DNA of 64,000 nt. It comes from Allostella vacuolata (GTDB lineage Bacteria; Pseudomonadota; Alphaproteobacteria; ATCC43930; Allostellaceae). Made by a program: the position numbers and the translations under genes. Location: contig AP019702.1 of NCBI GenBank assembly GCA_006739055.1, forward strand, positions 496,501 through 560,500, read 5' to 3'. The notes beneath the pieces were generated by a model. That model had not been told where the DNA came from. It saw nothing but the letters and a program-made list of their open reading frames with translations, and made no database searches. Position 1 is the stretch's first letter; each line of letters starts with the position of its first letter. Positions 8,263 through 60,983 of this stretch are shown here, piece after piece.

Positions 8263-8350
8263 GCCTGCTGCCGGGTGACGGATGCCACGGGCAGCAGGGT
8301 AGGCGCGGGCGCCGCGCCTGTAAATCGGCGGCCGGCTGGGACGCGGCGGC

Positions 8351-9280
8351 TCAGCCGCCCGCCGCCGCGATCGCCCGCCGCATTCCCTCCCGCGGAACGG
8401 GGCGCCCGGCGGTGATGGCGACCAGCCGCGCCGGCCCGCCGGTCGCCGGCCCGTCCTCGGACGGCAGGGGCGTCACCGACCAGCGGCGGCCGACGACCTG
8501 GATCAGGCAGCGGCCGCCCGACCGGTCGTCGACGATGCCCTTGGCCCGCACCAGGCCGAGCCCGGCGTCGGCCAGGGCCGCGGCCAGCCTGTCGGCATCC
8601 ACCGGACAGGGCAGTTCGGCCTGCCATCTGTCCCAGGCGGCGAGGTCGTGCCGGCCTGTGGGCGCCAGGACCAGGCGCGCGCCCGACGGCGGACCCAGCA
8701 CGACGTCGACCGGCAGGGCGGCGTGGCGGCAGGGGACGATCGCCGTGCCGGGGGCGGCCGTCGCCGCCACCCACGCCGCCGTGTCGGCGAGCAAGGCGTC
8801 GTCGACCAGGTCCGCCTTGTTCAGCGCCACCAGGTCGGCGGCGGCGAACTGGCGGGTGATCGTGTCGCCCATGTAGCGGTCGGCGGCATGGGCGCGCGCG
8901 GTCTCGGCGTCCGCCAGGACGATGACGGCATCCAGGCGAAAGGAGGACAGCAGCTGCATGCCCGCCGCCACCGCGCCGGGCAGGGCGACGCCGCTGGTCT
9001 CGATCAGCACATGGTCGGGCCGCGGCGTCATCGCCAGCAGCGCGTCGAGCGCGGCCATCAGGTCGCTGCCATAGGTGCAGCAGACGCAGCCGCCGGCGAT
9101 GCCGATCACGCCCGCGCCGCGATGCTCGATCAGGTCGACATCGATCGGCAGTTCGCCGAAGTCATTGACCAGCACCGCCAGGCGCCGGCCATCGGCGTGA
9201 CGCAGCAGGTGGTTGACGAGCGTCGTCTTGCCGGCCCCCAGGTAGCCGCCGACGATGGTGACGGGCAGCGGTCCCGGCAT
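8351..9280 (-). CDS. CobW/COG0523 family GTP-binding metallochaperone
   Basis: 309 residues. Walker A GGYLGAGKTT at 11-20, the family metal motif CxCC at Cys65-Cys67-Cys68 (GGCVCCT), and NKAD for guanine specificity are all present, followed by the CobW C-terminal domain (ALADAGLGLVRAKGIV). Such GTPases insert metal ions into client enzymes. It starts only five bases after a metal-dependent amidohydrolase gene stops, so that hydrolase is an obvious candidate client. The start ATG follows naturally; the frame extends upstream only into the amidohydrolase gene. Confidence 0.92.
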   Translation of the reverse strand: MPGPLPVTIVGGYLGAGKTTLVNHLLRHADGRRLAVLVNDFGELPIDVDLIEHRGAGVIGIAGGCVCCTYGSDLMAALDALLAMTPRPDHVLIETSGVALPGAVAAGMQLLSSFRLDAVIVLADAETARAHAADRYMGDTITRQFAAADLVALNKADLVDDALLADTAAWVAATAAPGTAIVPCRHAALPVDVVLGPPSGARLVLAPTGRHDLAAWDRWQAELPCPVDADRLAAALADAGLGLVRAKGIVDDRSGGRCLIQVVGRRWSVTPLPSEDGPATGGPARLVAITAGRPVPREGMRRAIAAAGG

Positions 9281-11712: not shown

Positions 11713-11747
11713 CCCTGGATTACCCTTCGACCCTGAAGGGCGGTGCT

Positions 11748-13577
11748 CTAGTCGTGGCTGGTGGCCACGCCGCGTACCGCGCCGCGCGGCACCCGGATCG
11801 AGTCGACGAAGTCCTGCATCTCGGGCGACGGCGGGGTCGTCACCAGGCTGACCAGCCAGGTCACGAGGAAGGCCACCGGCAGCCCGAACAGGGCGCTGGA
11901 GATGTTCCGGATGCCGAACCACAGCGGCATCGCGAAATAGTGGGTGGCGATCAGGTAGTAGAGACAGACGCCGAACCCGGCGATCATGCCGAGGATGGCG
12001 CCGACCGTGGTCGTCCGCTTCCACCAGATACCCATGACGAGCGGCGCGAAGAGCCCCGCCGCGGCCAGGGAGAAGGCCCAGGCCACCATCTGGATGATGC
12101 CCGACGGCCGCGTCCCGGCCACCAGCGCCGCCAGGATGGCGACGCCGACCAGCAGGGTGCGGGCGACGATCAGGCGGCGCTTGGTCGACGCCTGGGGATC
12201 GATCATCTTGTAGTAGACGTCATGCGACAGGGCGTTGGCGATGGCGAGCAGCAGCCCGTCCGCCGTCGAGAGCGCGGCCGCCAGGCCGCCTGCGGCGACC
12301 AGGCCCGAGATGACGTAGGGCAGGCCCGCCACCTCCGGCATCGACAGGACGATGATGTCCTGGTTGATGCGGATCTCGCCCAGGTCGAGCACCGCCCCGG
12401 CGATGGCATACTTCGTCACCTCCAGGATGCCGTTGCCGTTCAGGTCGTTGATCGTCAGCAGGCCGCCCACCTGCGACCAGCTCTGCACCCAGGCCGGCAG
12501 GGTGGAGATCTGCGCGCCGATGACGTTCTGATAGACCTCGAGCTTGGCGAAGGCCGCGTAGGCAGGGGCGGTGAAATAGAGCAGGAAGATGAAGAAGATG
12601 CTCCAGGCCACTGACTGCCGGGCCTCGCGCACGTTGGGCGTGGTGAAGTAGCGCATCAGGATGTGCGGCAGCGAGGCGGTGCCGACCATCAGGCAGAGGA
12701 CGAGCGCCCAGAAGTTGTTGAATTCCGTCCAGCTGAACTGGCCCGCCGCATCGACGAAGGGCGCCACGTGCTTGCGCACGATGTTCAGCTTGTCTTCCAG
12801 GGCGCCGATCTCGCTCAGCGCCATGCCGTAGGTCAGCTCGGGGATGGGGATGCCGTACTTCTTGGTCGAGAGCCAGACCACCGGCACCAGGTAGGCGATG
12901 ATGAGGATGATGTACTGGGCCACCTGGGTCCAGGTGACGGCGCGCATGCCGCCCAGCATCGAGCAGACCAGGATGCCCACGAGGCCGGCGAAGATCGCGA
13001 ACTCGAAGGGAATGCCGAGGAAGCGCGAAGTGATGATGCCGATGCCGAAGGCCTGGGCGACGATGTAGGTGAAGGAGGCGCAGAACAGCACCACCACGCC
13101 GCAGATCCGCGCGACGCTGCCCTCATACCGGGTTCCGAGGAAATCTGGCACCGTGAACTGCCCGAACTTGCGCAGGTAGGGAGCCAGCAGGATCGCGACC
13201 AGGACGTAGCCGCCGGTCCAGCCCAGCACGTAGCCGAGCCCGTTGTACCCGGCCAGGAACAGGCCGCCTGCCATGGAGATGAACGAGGCGGCGCTCATCC
13301 AGTCCGCGCCGGTTGCCATCCCGTTGTAGAGCGCGGGCACCGAGCGTCCGGCTACGTAGTACTCGGAGATTTCCATCGTCCGGGACAGGAAGCCGATATA
13401 GGCGTAGACGAAGATCGTCAGGAAGACGAAGCAGTAGCCGATCCATTTGTTCGGCATGCCGACCTGCTCCAGGATCGCGAGCAGGATGGTGAAGCCGATG
13501 AAGGCGCCGGTATAGCTGACGTAGATCTTGCCGAGGTTGGCGAGGAAGCTGGACGAGCCCGTGGATGCGTTGGCCAT
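11748..13577 (-). CDS. Sodium:solute symporter, acetate/monocarboxylate permease-like (VC_2705 type)
   Basis: 609 residues with about 13 hydrophobic helices. Segments such as GRSVPALYNGMATGADWMSAASFISMAGG (residues about 78-106) and PDFLGTRY match the SSS family branch annotated as cation acetate symporter, which imports short carboxylates with sodium in the inner membrane. It is preceded after 15 bases by the DUF4212 small subunit gene, the usual partner of this branch. It ends in a strong terminator. It is divergent from the exonuclease/CBS set, a neighbourhood often seen with these symporters. Confidence 0.9.
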   Translation of the reverse strand: MANASTGSSSFLANLGKIYVSYTGAFIGFTILLAILEQVGMPNKWIGYCFVFLTIFVYAYIGFLSRTMEISEYYVAGRSVPALYNGMATGADWMSAASFISMAGGLFLAGYNGLGYVLGWTGGYVLVAILLAPYLRKFGQFTVPDFLGTRYEGSVARICGVVVLFCASFTYIVAQAFGIGIITSRFLGIPFEFAIFAGLVGILVCSMLGGMRAVTWTQVAQYIILIIAYLVPVVWLSTKKYGIPIPELTYGMALSEIGALEDKLNIVRKHVAPFVDAAGQFSWTEFNNFWALVLCLMVGTASLPHILMRYFTTPNVREARQSVAWSIFFIFLLYFTAPAYAAFAKLEVYQNVIGAQISTLPAWVQSWSQVGGLLTINDLNGNGILEVTKYAIAGAVLDLGEIRINQDIIVLSMPEVAGLPYVISGLVAAGGLAAALSTADGLLLAIANALSHDVYYKMIDPQASTKRRLIVARTLLVGVAILAALVAGTRPSGIIQMVAWAFSLAAAGLFAPLVMGIWWKRTTTVGAILGMIAGFGVCLYYLIATHYFAMPLWFGIRNISSALFGLPVAFLVTWLVSLVTTPPSPEMQDFVDSIRVPRGAVRGVATSHD

Positions 13578-54040: not shown

Positions 54041-54382
54041 ATGAATGCAGGAATGGGAAAGCTCCCGCCTCCCGAGGAGGTCGTCGCGGCACTGGCCGAT
54101 ATCGGCCAGGGCGTCCGCCTGGCGCGCCTGCGACGCCGGCAGACCGCCCGCGAACTGGCTGATCGCATCGGCATCTCCCTGCGGACCTTGCAGAAACTGG
54201 AGCGCGGCGACCCGGGGGTGGCACTCGGCACGTTCGCGACCGCCCTGTGGGTGCTGGACCTGTTGCAGCCGGTCCGGGAGGCGGTCAGCCCGCAGAGCGA
54301 TCGCATTGCCGCGGCACTGGAAGCGAGCCGCGTCCCCAAGCGCGCGCGGCGCCGACGGGAAGACGACCTTGACCGTCTCTAG
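54041..54382 (+). CDS. HipB-like XRE antitoxin
   Basis: 113 residues. An XRE helix-turn-helix covers about residues 25-70 (VRLARLRRRQTARELADRIGISLRTLQKLERGD), followed by a basic tail (RRRR near 105). It is directly upstream of, and overlaps by 14 bases, a HipA-type kinase, which is the normal antitoxin position. It probably represses its own operon through the palindrome at 54019-54036 and neutralises HipA. Confidence 0.88.
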   Translation: MNAGMGKLPPPEEVVAALADIGQGVRLARLRRRQTARELADRIGISLRTLQKLERGDPGVALGTFATALWVLDLLQPVREAVSPQSDRIAAALEASRVPKRARRRREDDLDRL

Positions 54383-55601
54383 GGTGTTCGTCCACGCGCG
54401 GTTCACCGACGGGACGAGCCGGATCGTCGGCCGGTACATGGTGCTGCCGATATCGCGGGGCAGGTTGGGCGTGTTCGACTACGCCGGCTCGTGGCTGCGG
54501 AACGAGCACGGCCAGGCCTTTGCGATGCACCCGACGAAGGTGCCCCTGGGCGGGGGGACGATTGAACTCTCGTCGAGCACCGAACTCGGGTTCCTGGCGG
54601 ACTCGACGCCGGATCGCTGGGGGCGTCGCATCCTCGCGACCCTCCGGGCACCGGATCCCTTGCCGGCGAACGGGCCGGAATGGCTGCTGGCGACCGGCGA
54701 TGACCGCGTCGGCTGCCTGGCATTTTCCGAGACGCCCGAGCTGGGATCGATCCGAACCGATGCGGCCTCGGCAAACGATCTGTCGCGGCTTGCGGACGCC
54801 TTCGAGCGACTTGAGCGGGGCGAGCCGGCGAACCCGCCCTGGGAGCAGCTGTTCCGCGCCGGTCTCAGCATGGGCGGTGCCAGGCCGAAGGCGACCGTCC
54901 ACCACGATGGCCATCTATGGATCGCCAAGTTCCAGCGTCGCACGGACGATTTCGATCAGTGCGCGGCCGAGCATGCGGCAATGCGGCTGGCCGCGCATTG
55001 CGGGCTCGATGTCGCGGAGACCCGGATCGCCGACGCGGGTCCACGCCGAGCCGTGCTCGTCAAGCGGTTCGACCGGGCGCCCGGCCCCCCGTTCCATCCC
55101 ACTGGGCACTATCTGAGCGCCCTGAGCGCGCTGGACCTCGATGAGACCTCGTTGCTGGGCTCCTATCGTGAAATCGCCGGCTTCCTCCGCCGGCATTCCG
55201 CCGCCCATTTGGGTGACCGGATCGAGCTCTTCCGGCGCATGGTCTTCAATGTGCTCGTCGGCAACCGGGACGACCATCTGAAGAACCACGCGCTGATCCA
55301 CCGGCCCGGTGCCGGATGGCGGCTTACGCCAGCCTTCGACGTGGTGCCCCAGCCAGACATGGATCCGGTCCAGGCGATATCCGTCGGACGACATGGCACG
55401 ACTGCGAGCCTGTCGAACTGCCTGAGCCAGTGCGGGGAATTCGGACTGGCTGAGGAATCCGCCCGCACGCTGGTCGAGGCAATGGTCGCCCGGCTGCGGG
55501 GCTGGCGGGCGTTCTTCGCCGACCTTGGGGTCGACCGGCAGACCATCGGCCAGCTGGAGCGGGCCTTCGCCCGGCGACTCGACACCGACCCTCCGGCCTA
55601 G
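54369..55601 (+). CDS. HipA family serine/threonine kinase toxin
   Basis: About 410 residues from TTG 54369, overlapping the antitoxin by 14 bases (GTG 54384 is the alternative). The HipA features are present: LSMGGARPKA with Ser167 in the phosphorylated P-loop position, KFQRRTD, and the catalytic NRDDHLKNHALI (Asp301/Asp302, Asn306), then PAFDVVPQ. HipA kinases phosphorylate a tRNA synthetase (GltX in E. coli) and halt growth. By eye the DNA is less GC-rich than its neighbours, in keeping with acquisition. Convergent with the ligase gene, sharing CTAG at the stops. Confidence 0.9.
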   Translation: MTVSRVFVHARFTDGTSRIVGRYMVLPISRGRLGVFDYAGSWLRNEHGQAFAMHPTKVPLGGGTIELSSSTELGFLADSTPDRWGRRILATLRAPDPLPANGPEWLLATGDDRVGCLAFSETPELGSIRTDAASANDLSRLADAFERLERGEPANPPWEQLFRAGLSMGGARPKATVHHDGHLWIAKFQRRTDDFDQCAAEHAAMRLAAHCGLDVAETRIADAGPRRAVLVKRFDRAPGPPFHPTGHYLSALSALDLDETSLLGSYREIAGFLRRHSAAHLGDRIELFRRMVFNVLVGNRDDHLKNHALIHRPGAGWRLTPAFDVVPQPDMDPVQAISVGRHGTTASLSNCLSQCGEFGLAEESARTLVEAMVARLRGWRAFFADLGVDRQTIGQLERAFARRLDTDPPA

Positions 55602-57070: not shown

Positions 57071-57097
57071 GGCGGGCAATGCGTTTGGCGGGGCGAT

Positions 57098-57244
57098 CAG
57101 GGAACGAGCCCGACCGCGGCGGTCGTACTTGCCGGGTTGCGCCTTCGGGCCGCGGCAGGATGTAGTCTGCGTGGCGTTGGCCATGGCGGCCGCGTCCGGC
57201 GTGCACGCCGCATGACGGGCGACGGCTTCCCCGAACCAGGACTG
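57098..57244 (-). pseudogene. Remnant of a tandem paralogous ligase with internal deletion
   Basis: The open frame continues upstream of the ligase start for 63 codons. Residues from Gln (57244) read QSWFGEAVARHAACTPD and match the ligase N-terminus QSWYGEAIVRNAARHPD position by position; a little further, PGKYDRRGRARS matches the ligase C-terminus LGKFDRRALRE. The first part (about 33 codons) is thus fused to the last part (about 15 codons) of a ligase-like gene, with some 430 codons missing. No start codon survives at the expected place, so it is read as a scar, not a gene. Confidence 0.65.
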
Positions 57245-57284
57245 GGCTCGGGGACCGTGCCCGGGGGGTGCGGGCGGGCCCCGC

Positions 57285-58691
57285 TCATGCGGGCTCGCCG
57301 CCGGCGGCCTCCGCCGGCCGGATCTCCGGAATCGCGATGTCGTGGGCCGCCGGGTCGGCCGCGGCGAAGAAGGCCCGGTCGTGCTCGTAGCGGAAGGGGA
57401 AGGGGCGCAGGGCGTCGAAGCCGACCTTGCTGCCGATATAGTCGGGGAAGCCGGGGTTGAGCCCATGGCCGAAGACCCGGTCGATGACGAGGATGCCGGT
57501 CGCCGGGTCCATCCGGGTCGCCATCGCCCATTCGACGTCGCCGGCATTGCGGATGTCGACGTCGTCGTCCACCACCGTCACCATCTTCAGCGGCGGGAAG
57601 GCGGCGAAGGCCGCCATGATCGCCTGCTTGCCCCAGCCGGCGCGCTTTTGCCGGAGCGCGACCACGGCGTGGTAGAAGCCGCAGCCGCCATGGGTGAAAT
57701 AGACGTCGGCCACGCCCGGAACCTGGCGCTGCAGCAGGGCCAGCACGTTGGCCTCGCCCAGCAGCCCGACCGAATTCCACACCTCCTTGCCGGACAGGAT
57801 GGTCTGGAAGACCGGCTCGCGGCGGCGATGGATGCGCCGGACATGGACGACCGGGCGCGGGGCGCGGCGCGCGTAGTAGCCGGTGACTTCCGCGAACGGG
57901 CCCTCGTCGGCCAGCTCGCCCGGGATCATCTCGCATTCCAGCGCGATCATCGCATGGGCCACCATCTCGACCGGCGAGCAGGTGCCCGGCACCAGCTCCA
58001 GCGGCGCGCCGTGGAACTCGCTGGCGATGCCGAGTTCGTCGGTATCCGCCGGGGCGGCCTCCGCCGGGGTGGCGGCGGCGAAGTGCAGGCCGGGCCCGAC
58101 GCCGCAGTTGAGCGTGAAGAACAGCGATTCGCCGCGCGCCCGCGCCTTCTCCAGGTACAGCTCCAGGTGCCGGCCGGAATCGATGTTGATGGTCATCGTG
58201 TCGGGCCCGGTGACCAGGAAGCGCTGGATGGAGGCGTTGCGCACGCCGGTGTCGGGATCGCGTGCGATCACCACCGCGGCGTCGAAATAGGCCCCGCCGT
58301 CCTTCTCGGCATGGGTCGGGATCGGCAGGGCGGCCAGGTCGACCGCGGCCTCGGTCACCTCCAGCACCGGCCCGCTCGCCACCACCACCGGGTCGACCGG
58401 CCGCTGCTGCCAGGCGCGGATGCAGTTGGAGACATGCTGCGGCAGGGCCTTCTCGTCCCGGCCGAGCAGGTCCGCCAGCAGCTCGCGCGACCAGTAGAGG
58501 CCCGTCATCACCGGCCAGCGATGGCCCTTCACCCGCTCGAACAGGACCGCGCGCGGCCCACCCTCGAAGCGCGCCGCGATGCCGGCCAACTCGTGCACCG
58601 GATCGACCTCGGAGCGGACGCGGACCAGCCGGCCGCGCGCGTCGAGCGCGGCCAGGATGCGGCCCAGGTCGTGCAGCAGGTTCGCGCTCAT
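57285..58691 (-). CDS. UbiD family decarboxylase
   Basis: 468 residues. The family is recognised by NASIQRFLVTGPDTMTINID, ELADEGPFAEVTGYYA, and HGGCGFYHAVVALRQKRAGWGKQAIMAAF ending in DVEWAMATRMDP. UbiD enzymes use prenylated FMN, made by UbiX, to (de)carboxylate aromatic or alpha,beta-unsaturated acids in the cytoplasm. No ubiX is nearby. The start overlaps the enolase-like stop by four bases (ATGA), so the two are translationally coupled, and the substrate should relate to the enolase-like reaction. Confidence 0.92.
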   Translation of the reverse strand: MSANLLHDLGRILAALDARGRLVRVRSEVDPVHELAGIAARFEGGPRAVLFERVKGHRWPVMTGLYWSRELLADLLGRDEKALPQHVSNCIRAWQQRPVDPVVVASGPVLEVTEAAVDLAALPIPTHAEKDGGAYFDAAVVIARDPDTGVRNASIQRFLVTGPDTMTINIDSGRHLELYLEKARARGESLFFTLNCGVGPGLHFAAATPAEAAPADTDELGIASEFHGAPLELVPGTCSPVEMVAHAMIALECEMIPGELADEGPFAEVTGYYARRAPRPVVHVRRIHRRREPVFQTILSGKEVWNSVGLLGEANVLALLQRQVPGVADVYFTHGGCGFYHAVVALRQKRAGWGKQAIMAAFAAFPPLKMVTVVDDDVDIRNAGDVEWAMATRMDPATGILVIDRVFGHGLNPGFPDYIGSKVGFDALRPFPFRYEHDRAFFAAADPAAHDIAIPEIRPAEAAGGEPA

Positions 58692-59989
58692 GGCCGGCCC
58701 TGCCCCGGGAAGATCTGGCCCGCGCGGAAGCGGGCGCGTTCGCCCAGCCCCTCCTCGATGCGCAGCGCCTCGTTCCATTTCGCCATCCGCTCGGAGCGGG
58801 CGAAGGAGCCGACCTTGAGCTGGTCGGCCTGCCAGCCGACGGCGAGATGGACGACGGTCACGTCCTCGGTCTCGCCGGACCGGGCCGAGACGATGGTGCG
58901 CATCCCGGCCGCGCGCGCGGCATCCAGCGCGGCCCTGGTCTCGGTCAGGGTGCCGGCCTGGTTCGGCTTGATGAGGGCGGCGGTGCAGGCGCGGTCGCGC
59001 GCGGCGGCCTCGATGCGGGCGGCGCTGGTGACCAGGAAGTCGTCGCCCACCACCAGCGCCCGGTCGCCGATCGCCGCCGTCACCTGGGCCATGCCGGCCG
59101 GGTCGTCCTCGGCCATCGGGTCTTCGACCGAGACGATCGGGTGGCGGGCGACCCAGCCGGCGACCCGCTCGGCCCATTCGCCGCGGTCGTAGTCGCGCTC
59201 GTCCAGGCGCAGGCGGTAGGCGCCGTCGCGGCCGAACTGGGTGGCGGCGACGTCGAGCGCGATCGCCACCTGCTCGCCGGCGCGGAAGCCCGCCCGCTCG
59301 ATGGCGAGTGCCAGCGTCGCGATTGCCTCCTCGTTGTCGGCGAAGACCGGCCACCAGCCGCCCTCGTCCGCCACCCCCTGGCGCTTGCCGGCTGCCGCCA
59401 TCAGGGCGCCCGCCGCGCGATAGACCTCGGCCGTCCAGTCGAGCGCCTGGGCGAAGTTCTCCGCCCCCGGACAGACCACCATGAAGTCCTGCAGGTCGAC
59501 CCGGGCGTCGGCATGGGCGCCGCCGCCGAAGATCTGGATCTCCGGCAGGGGCATCACGACCGGGCCGTCCGCGCCATCCCCGGCCAGCCAGCGCCACAGG
59601 GGCAGGCCGTGCGCGGCGGCGGTGGCGTGGGCGGCCGCCATGGAGACGGCGATGGTCGCGTTGCCGCCGAGCCGCGCCTTGTTCGCGGTGCCGTCCAGCT
59701 CGATCAGGCGGGCATCGAGCGCGGCCTGGCCGGCCGCGTCCATGCCGGCGATGGCGGGGGCGATCTCGTCGCGGATCGCGGCCAGCGCGCCCCGCACGTC
59801 GAGCCCGCCGAAGGCCGTGCCGCCGTCGCGCCGGTCGACCGCCTCGCCGGAGCCGGTCGACGCGCCGGCCGGGGCGATGGCGCGGCCGACCGCGCCGCCG
59901 GCCGTGGTCACCTCGGCCTCGACGGTCGGGCGGCCGCGGGAATCCCACACCCGGCGGGCATGGACATGGCGGATGGTGGAATCAGGCAT
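58688..59989 (-). CDS. Enolase paralogue with altered active-site residues
   Basis: 433 residues, enolase length and full-length homology. Conserved: metal ligands Asp246, Glu290 and Asp316; Lys341 (LIKPNQ), Lys392, His159 (GGAHAD), Glu209 (ADEGG). Altered: Ala369 where enolases have the phosphate-binding His (SARSGETED for SHRSGETED), Asp168 where Glu167 is usual, and divergent loops (RGRPTVEAEV, LGGNATIAV). The overall pattern says it is not the housekeeping phosphopyruvate hydratase but a paralogue for a related phospho-acid. Translationally coupled to a kinase before it (8-base overlap) and UbiD after it. Confidence 0.85.
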   Translation of the reverse strand: MPDSTIRHVHARRVWDSRGRPTVEAEVTTAGGAVGRAIAPAGASTGSGEAVDRRDGGTAFGGLDVRGALAAIRDEIAPAIAGMDAAGQAALDARLIELDGTANKARLGGNATIAVSMAAAHATAAAHGLPLWRWLAGDGADGPVVMPLPEIQIFGGGAHADARVDLQDFMVVCPGAENFAQALDWTAEVYRAAGALMAAAGKRQGVADEGGWWPVFADNEEAIATLALAIERAGFRAGEQVAIALDVAATQFGRDGAYRLRLDERDYDRGEWAERVAGWVARHPIVSVEDPMAEDDPAGMAQVTAAIGDRALVVGDDFLVTSAARIEAAARDRACTAALIKPNQAGTLTETRAALDAARAAGMRTIVSARSGETEDVTVVHLAVGWQADQLKVGSFARSERMAKWNEALRIEEGLGERARFRAGQIFPGQGRP

Positions 59990-60983
59990 GGTTCAACTCC
60001 GCTTCCCATGCCGCGCGGACGGCGGCCAGGCGATCGACGGGGGATTGCAGCAGGCGGCGGGCGACGCGGCGCACCCGCGCCCGGTCGCCCTCGCCGGTCA
60101 GGTACTCGACCGGGGACTTGCCGTCGACCCGGGCGAGGAACAGGGCCGGCAGCAGCGTCGCCGCCCGCATCTCCGCGGCCTCGACCGGCTCCCAGGCCAC
60201 GCCCTCCAGCCAGCTGCCGGCAAGCCGGTCGAAGGCGGCGAGGAAACCCGGCGTCGCGGCCGGGGTCCACAGGCATTTCAGCAGCAGGTGGTTGAGGCAG
60301 AAGGCGATGTCGAAGGCGGGGTCGCCGTACCAGGCGCATTCCGCGTCGAGGAAGACCGGGCCGTCCGGCCCCAGCAGGATGTTCTTCGGGCTGGCGTCGC
60401 CATGGACGAGGGCCAGCCGGGTGTCGGCGGTCCGCCGGGCCAGGGTCTCCAGCACGGGCGCCAGGTCGGGATGGGCGCGCGCCGTCGCCAGCAGGTAGGG
60501 CTCCAGGCGGATCGCGTGGAAGATCGCGTCGGTGGCGAAGCGCCGGGCGACCTCCGGGTCGCCGGCGGTCGCGGCGTGGATCCGGGCCAGCGTGGTGCCG
60601 ACCGCCGCCGCGGCCGCGGGGTCGGCCCGGCCGTCGCGCAATTCGGCCTTCCACAGGGGGCAGCGGCCGGGGTCGAGGAACTCCATGGCGAAGAGGCCGG
60701 CCTCGGCATCCTGGGCCAGGATGCGGGGTGCTGCGCCGGGCACGATCGCGCGGGCGGCGCGGATCCAGTCCGCCTCGTGGGCGTTGCGGCCGACCGGTGC
60801 CCGCCAGTCCTGGGCGACCTTCAGCTTGGCCAGCGCCCGCTTGACGCAGAACACGGCATCGCCCGCCTCCACCTTCCAGATGTCGGACGACACCCCGCCG
60901 GTCAGCGGGATCAGGCGGGGCTCGATGCCGTCGGCGACGAGGCCGAGGCGGCGCAGGGTGGGGAGGAGATCTGTGTCGGACAC
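59982..60983 (-). CDS. APH-fold kinase (aminoglycoside phosphotransferase/choline kinase family)
   Basis: 333 residues from GTG 60983. The P-loop-like LTGGVSSDIWKVEAGDAVFCVKRAL, the Brenner motif LVHGDASPKNILLG and the metal Asp in FLDAECAWYGDPAFDIAF identify a small-molecule kinase of the APH/ChoK family. It phosphorylates a hydroxyl with ATP. Its stop overlaps the enolase-like gene by eight bases, so the phosphorylated product may be the enolase paralogue's substrate. No strong ribosome binding site; the frame extends upstream through non-family sequence to 61244. Confidence 0.87.
   Translation of the reverse strand: MSDTDLLPTLRRLGLVADGIEPRLIPLTGGVSSDIWKVEAGDAVFCVKRALAKLKVAQDWRAPVGRNAHEADWIRAARAIVPGAAPRILAQDAEAGLFAMEFLDPGRCPLWKAELRDGRADPAAAAAVGTTLARIHAATAGDPEVARRFATDAIFHAIRLEPYLLATARAHPDLAPVLETLARRTADTRLALVHGDASPKNILLGPDGPVFLDAECAWYGDPAFDIAFCLNHLLLKCLWTPAATPGFLAAFDRLAGSWLEGVAWEPVEAAEMRAATLLPALFLARVDGKSPVEYLTGEGDRARVRRVARRLLQSPVDRLAAVRAAWEAELNHA

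Follow-up and report, generated by a model that had tools for sequence, protein, structure and literature searches.

An enolase paralogue with replaced active-site residues forms a conserved unit with an APH-fold kinase in Allostella vacuolata

The stretch analysed here, 64,000 nucleotides of contig AP019702.1 of Allostella vacuolata (hereafter the window), carries on its minus strand a gene for an APH-fold kinase, followed directly by a gene for an enolase paralogue. The conserved unit is this kinase together with this paralogue. The paralogue departs from standard enolases at residues 168, 213 and 369, and, judging from its sequence, the pair seems to keep enolase chemistry while having a rebuilt C3 side and a dedicated kinase. 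As to the reactions and the substrate, we infer, with slightly more belief than doubt, that the unit phosphorylates O2 of a glycerate-type acid and then dehydrates the product to phosphoenolpyruvate (PEP) or a PEP-like compound. The genes of the pair and the codons discussed below are as follows.

59982..60983, minus strand: APH-fold kinase, 333 amino acids, GTG start (PF01636, E 9e-18)
58688..59989, minus strand: enolase paralogue, 433 amino acids (PF03952, Enolase_N, and PF00113, Enolase_C; TIGR01060)
59486..59488, minus strand: Asp168 codon GAC (Glu in standard enolase)
59363..59365, minus strand: Glu209 codon, catalytic acid, retained
59351..59353, minus strand: Trp213 codon TGG (Ala in standard enolase), four residues past the catalytic Glu209
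58967..58969, minus strand: Lys341 codon, catalytic base, retained
58883..58885, minus strand: Ala369 codon GCC (His in standard enolase)

The paralogue, its residues and its kinase

The genome, a single contig of 5.83 Mb, encodes a standard enolase elsewhere (G000:C1:3110869-3111720, at about 3.11 Mb), which scores 424 bits against Enolase_C compared with 254 for the window protein and is 46% identical to it. Because the genome has its own standard enolase, the 433-amino-acid protein is a paralogue, as the original prediction had proposed, and a housekeeping role for it is ruled out. The window paralogue nevertheless passes the curated TIGR01060 model (439 bits, cut-off 300), and its structure model, like the other models read at fold level only, has a predicted local distance difference test (pLDDT) score of 90 and a template modelling (TM) score of 0.95 to solved enolases. 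In a survey of 241 genomes of the class, 16 carry the paralogue, scoring 608–759 bits with a paralogue model, while all others reach at most 515. All 16 have at least two enolase matches, and among the matches listed the second scores as a standard enolase in at least 12 of them. A survey of 397 genomes of the phylum detected the paralogue, at E 1e-165 or below, in 10; of these, 8 are additional to the 16 of the class survey, and a standard enolase is present alongside it in all 8. The genome G003 holds two different paralogue-kinase pairs (L038, on G003:C153, and L025, on G003:C412) plus a partial enolase; its assembly comprises 570 contigs with 5% contamination.

We aligned 92 distinct paralogues, chosen with a cut of 55% identity to that of the window, with 15 standard enolases from the same class, of which 14 were the top scorers in the class survey. 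Residue 168 is Asp in 92/92 paralogues and Glu in 15/15 standard enolases; residue 369 is Ala in all 92 and His in all 15; residue 213 is Trp in 91 of the 92 and Ala in all 15. D168 and A369 also occur in three divergent paralogues below the 55% cut, and the phylum survey added 8 paralogues that agree at all three positions (the other 6 of its 14 rows being repeats). Unchanged in all 92 and all 15 are S44, H159, Q167, E209, D246, E289, D316, K341, R370, S371 and K392; every one of the 92 paralogues thus retains the ligands of metal, phosphate and carboxylate as well as the catalytic Lys and Glu. The alignment bears out the enolase length and numbering, the metal ligands, Lys341 and Lys392, and the Asp168 and Ala369 of the original prediction. 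In the tree, the 15 standard enolases split from a group made up of 37 sampled paralogues, L133 and L134 (Shimodaira–Hasegawa-like approximate likelihood ratio test, 99). A divergent Caulobacteraceae enolase, at L110:8683-9921 on the plus strand, is 48% identical to that of the window and adjoins a D-2-hydroxyacid dehydrogenase (41% identity).

The roles of the replaced residues were read from published complexes. In the available part of a study of Escherichia coli enolase bound to SF2312 (PMC6863902), whose numbering is one below that of the window for residues 159 and 168, the hydroxyl mimicking the C3-OH is held by Glu167, Lys392 and His369, and the phosphonate by the amides of Ala40 and Ser371, by His158 and Arg370 and by Mg2. 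An excerpt of PMC4667285 describes two glutamates touching the hydroxyl of 2-phosphoglycerate (2-PG). On balance, both replaced residues, 168 and 369, lie on the C3 side of the substrate, and the paralogue group carries Asp and Ala in place of the standard C3-OH contact set of Glu168 and His369. The lost residue had originally been called a phosphate-binding His. That is a mislabel, because the phosphate-side His159 is kept, and His369 contacts the C3-OH mimic in the excerpted E. coli complex.

The coupling of paralogue and kinase was followed in 80 database loci, obtained by scanning genome contigs with a kinase alignment and representing the best 80 of 555 confirmed kinase relatives; they span 3–21 kb, some end at contig edges, and a few are the same contigs as loci from the survey genomes. 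With the exception of L059, which ends right behind the kinase, there is room for a following gene in 79 of them, and in 75 the paralogue lies directly after the kinase on the same strand, with a median gap of about −3 bases. Moreover, the kinase accompanies the paralogue in all 16 class genomes (next to it in 14, on another contig in 2) and in all 8 additional phylum genomes (next to it in 6, about 5–8 kb away in 2). The two are thus co-present in 24/24 survey genomes that have the paralogue, which supports the predicted coupling. The pair is found in many bacteria, strains of Neoroseomonas and Kaistia among them. In L034 (4900-8659, minus strand), the enolase lies away from the kinase, after Rieske-type and Gfo/Idh-type genes named by eye. 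The literature, searched mainly through open-access papers for the gene set and for the lost His among other subjects, gave no account of such a kinase-enolase pair.

The only Pfam-A match of the kinase is APH (PF01636), which places it outside the folds of the three glycerate kinase classes. Its AlphaFold2 model (pLDDT 95) resembles 5-methylthioribose kinase, the nearest solved fold (TM 0.82) and, as TIGR01767, also the best NCBIfam match; it differs from that enzyme in an identity of just 15–16% and in a score, 48.8 bits against a cut-off of 275, far below the equivalog level. Aminoglycoside resistance was rejected given this proximity to methylthioribose kinase, and a defence system was rejected as none of four window proteins had a PADLOC match.

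Recurrent neighbours of the pair

The unit is a two-enzyme module in which a third enzyme is often present. A D-2-hydroxyacid dehydrogenase (at least 45% identity) lies by the pair in 28/80 loci, 16 times downstream, 11 times divergently upstream and once otherwise. A PanE-like reductase takes its place in L101 and L194, as identified by family search, and in L107, by eye, and a distant dehydrogenase of the same kind overlaps the kinase in L165 and lies beside it in L192. Both the D-2-hydroxyacid dehydrogenase and the PanE-like families make (R)-2-hydroxy acids. Within the window genus, a search with the N-terminal 90 residues as query detected no close D-2-hydroxyacid dehydrogenase (best E 9.8e-10). 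In L045, L067, L072 and L076, the gene immediately preceding the kinase, in the same orientation, is PdxH-like by eye.

Other loci contain genes related to sugar-acid metabolism. A FAH-type hydrolase and a DUF6807 protein accompany the pair in L056 (DUF6807 at 8306-9208), with a TRAP transporter by eye, and all three were recognized by eye in L167 (DUF6807 at 11718-12641); the recurrence of DUF6807 with the pair and a FAH-type hydrolase may point to a sugar route. L079 encodes an RraA-like protein, a split galactarate/altronate-type dehydratase and a sugar ABC transporter, and L109 looks alike by eye. A thiamine pyrophosphate-dependent pair resembling sulfopyruvate decarboxylase, below cut-offs, was found in L041 and by eye in L043, and L111 combines a four-carbon-acid-sugar-kinase-like protein with PdxA. 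Two clusters look like whole sugar routes, those of G063 (LacI-type regulator, kinase, enolase, FAH hydrolase, short-chain dehydrogenase/reductase (SDR), ABC sugar transporter, IlvD/Edd-type dehydratase, SDR) and G550 (galactonate-dehydratase-like enzyme at 276 bits with a cut-off of 311, SDRs, FAH hydrolase, enolase, kinase, LacI-type regulator). In such routes, the FAH step yields pyruvate and a 2-hydroxy acid, which is glycerate when the route starts from a full hexose. Titles in the reference list of PMC13406643 refer to conversion of L-galactose to L-lactate and glycerate in mammals and to enzymes of the altronate dehydratase family in bacterial routes for L-galactose and L-fucose. A literature search on routes by which glycerate or L-glycerate would pass through enolase gave no description of a kinase-enolase module.

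Candidate reactions and alternative explanations

In the mechanism we propose, the kinase would phosphorylate the 2-hydroxyl of a small glycerate-type 2,3-dihydroxy acid. K341 of the paralogue would then remove the C2 proton, and the C3 hydroxyl would be expelled with the help of E209, leaving PEP or an enol phosphate that resembles it. The dihydroxy acid could arise from a 2-oxo-3-hydroxy acid through an (R)-2-hydroxyacid reductase. Its other possible source is the oxidative, non-phosphorylating breakdown of sugars or sugar acids, in which pyruvate and a 2-hydroxy acid are the end products. The residues around the C3-OH are changed, but those that grip phosphate and carboxylate are not; the natural substrate is therefore most likely something other than ordinary 2-phospho-D-glycerate, with a difference either at C3 or in the configuration of C2. 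If ordinary 2-phospho-D-glycerate were the substrate, the pair would duplicate enzymes already present, as a MOFRL glycerate 2-kinase occurs in 14/16 class genomes with the paralogue and a standard enolase is counted in 24/24 survey genomes. The changes on the C3 side thus point to a different group at C3 or to inversion at C2. The boldest candidate is 2-phospho-L-glycerate, with L-glycerate coming from non-phosphorylating L-galactose-type routes. With phosphate and carboxylate anchored, the CH2OH of the L-enantiomer would lie elsewhere, which would explain the replaced C3-OH contacts. We consider this candidate doubtful; the (R)-type reductases beside the pair favour D products, which counts against it.

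A number of points weigh against O2-phosphorylation and dehydration by a conserved kinase-paralogue unit with an altered C3 side. The assignment of residue 168 to C3 is not unanimous among the excerpted sources: in Mycobacterium tuberculosis enolase (PMC10619443), Glu163, equivalent to 168, is among the carboxylate contacts and His154, equivalent to the kept 159, is at the 2-PG hydroxyl, whereas PMC6863902 places the residue equivalent to 168 at the C3-OH mimic. The C3-OH role of His369 comes from a single inhibitor paper, PMC6863902. The L110 enolase, which stands beside the standard clade in the tree, has D168 and A369 without W213, an exception consistent with a separate or intermediate lineage. 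The 80-locus set leans towards close relatives, and the correlation of kinase with enolase distances over 79 loci (r 0.50; highest of 999 permutations 0.197) leaves species relatedness uncontrolled. There is no directly adjacent enolase in L054, L060, L082 and L110; G046 has a kinase of 51% identity without the paralogue; in G065 and G109 the two genes are on different contigs; and they lie on opposite strands about 5 kb apart in G374 and about 8 kb apart in G316. Regarding the context, a further co-directional neighbour is found in only 44/96 loci, and it varies, and the FAH hydrolases of G063 and G550 best match the model of 2,4-didehydro-3-deoxy-L-rhamnonate hydrolase at 334 and 362 bits, short of its cut-off of 500. 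Finally, D-type reductases would yield D-glycerate, for which standard enzymes would be enough.

This last point leads to the explanation that the pair is an inducible isozyme set, with which cells growing on sugar acids would convert hydroxypyruvate or D-glycerate to PEP. The kinase would then be a D-glycerate 2-kinase of the APH fold, and the paralogue simply another enolase for 2-phospho-D-glycerate. The partner reductases belong to (R)-specific families, and dehydrogenase, kinase and enolase in sequence would amount to hydroxypyruvate conversion to PEP; none of the residues serving as base or acid or binding metal, phosphate and carboxylate is lost, and the near-perfect fold match and the TIGR01060 score fit equally. 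What makes us regard isozymes as rather unlikely is the replacement of the C3-OH contacts, as defined by the excerpted complexes, in every paralogue, together with the redundancy described above. The loss of a His that contacts the substrate in the excerpted complex would also suit a regulatory or structural enolase; with metal ligands, base and acid invariant in 92/92, a dead enzyme is not expected, and we consider this the least probable of the alternatives. Bialaphos biosynthesis includes an enolase homologue with a non-glycolytic role, which offers a precedent for a specialised-metabolite enzyme acting on a phosphonate-type PEP precursor, and L047 has a neighbour of the PEP-mutase/isocitrate-lyase family. 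This neighbour best matches methylisocitrate lyase, below cut-off, in 1 locus of 80, no biosynthetic cluster recurs beside the pair, and a literature search for the bialaphos enzyme gave none; such a role is highly improbable.

The remaining explanation, that of the original prediction, draws in genes on both sides of the pair.

57285..58691, minus strand: UbiD decarboxylase, 468 amino acids (PF01977, PF20695, PF20696)
57070-55598: AMP ligase, downstream of UbiD (family search)
Divergent from the kinase: MFS transporter

The family assignments of these genes and of the pair are secure from their profile matches. Transcription on the minus strand runs from kinase to paralogue to UbiD, and the coordinates and frames confirm the predicted overlaps, of 8 bases between kinase and paralogue and of 4 bases (ATGA) between paralogue and UbiD. 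Kinase, paralogue and UbiD were accordingly proposed to act in sequence, with the ligase and the transporter alongside. Phosphorylation by the kinase followed by enolase-type elimination remains the natural reading of the pair. UbiD also adjoins the pair in the congeners G001 and G002, UbiX is present in the genome, and UbiD is plausibly a working enzyme. On the other hand, no UbiD relative was detected near the pair in any of the 80 loci, and the UbiD subfamily, found in 10/241 class genomes, coincides with the paralogue (16/241) only in G000, the window genome, and G001, both of this genus; a shared UbiD step, and with it the predicted conservation of all three genes, was rejected on these counts. 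The nearest solved chain, the indole-3-carboxylate decarboxylase AnInD (7p9q; 589 bits over residues 7-452), is described in the available text of PMC8988006 as strictly specific for indole-3-carboxylate, which also counts against this pathway; AnInD has no bearing on the kinase-enolase pair. UbiD looks like a local neighbour or addition in this genus, outside the conserved unit. The ligase is only 42–44% identical to ligases at the matching place in two congeners, with only weak matches (25–35%) near the pair outside the genus, and conservation of the MFS gene next to the pair is confined to the genus. Both were rejected as core genes, contrary to their predicted part. We judge the full pathway very unlikely.

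The gap between UbiD and the ligase (57071-57285, minus strand) holds a decayed ligase remnant: one frame matches the intact ligase of the window over residues 6-37 (53%, E 6e-9), and the next piece resembles the ligase C-terminal end (7/11). At this place, the congener G001 has two tandem ligases. Farther on, 54053-55601 on the plus strand contains a small helix-turn-helix-like open reading frame, seen by eye, and then a HipA-like gene (PF07804), which is convergent with the ligase and shares its last bases with it.

Relation to known systems

Enolase, or phosphopyruvate hydratase (TIGR01060), shares with the paralogue group the fold, the length, the Mg ligands, Lys341, Glu209, Lys392, Gln167, His159, Arg370 and Ser371. 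The group differs from it in having D168 for Glu, A369 for His and W213 for Ala, and in that each survey genome with one of its members also encodes a standard enolase as well as an APH-fold kinase. Considering that the window paralogue passes the curated glycolytic-enolase score, the family is liable to be annotated as phosphopyruvate hydratase, which would blur metabolic models. It also represents a natural test of how much change an enolase active site tolerates as long as its hold on phosphate and carboxylate stays the same. Since the kinase partner is constant, a small screen of the ordinary kind could find the substrate.

The serine cycle contains an arm made of hydroxypyruvate reductase, glycerate 2-kinase and enolase. 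If the D-2-hydroxyacid dehydrogenase, the kinase and the paralogue act in sequence, the order of reaction types would be the same, whereas the window kinase has another fold, the C3 side of the paralogue is changed and the ordinary enzymes are also present. Three classes of glycerate kinase, I, II (MOFRL) and III, are described in the available text of PMC2063504. What they have in common with the window kinase is the reaction proposed for it, in which a glycerate-type acid is phosphorylated at O2, and their folds, as far as that source goes, are unrelated to its APH fold; if the kinase uses glycerate, it would be a fourth, unrelated class beside these three.

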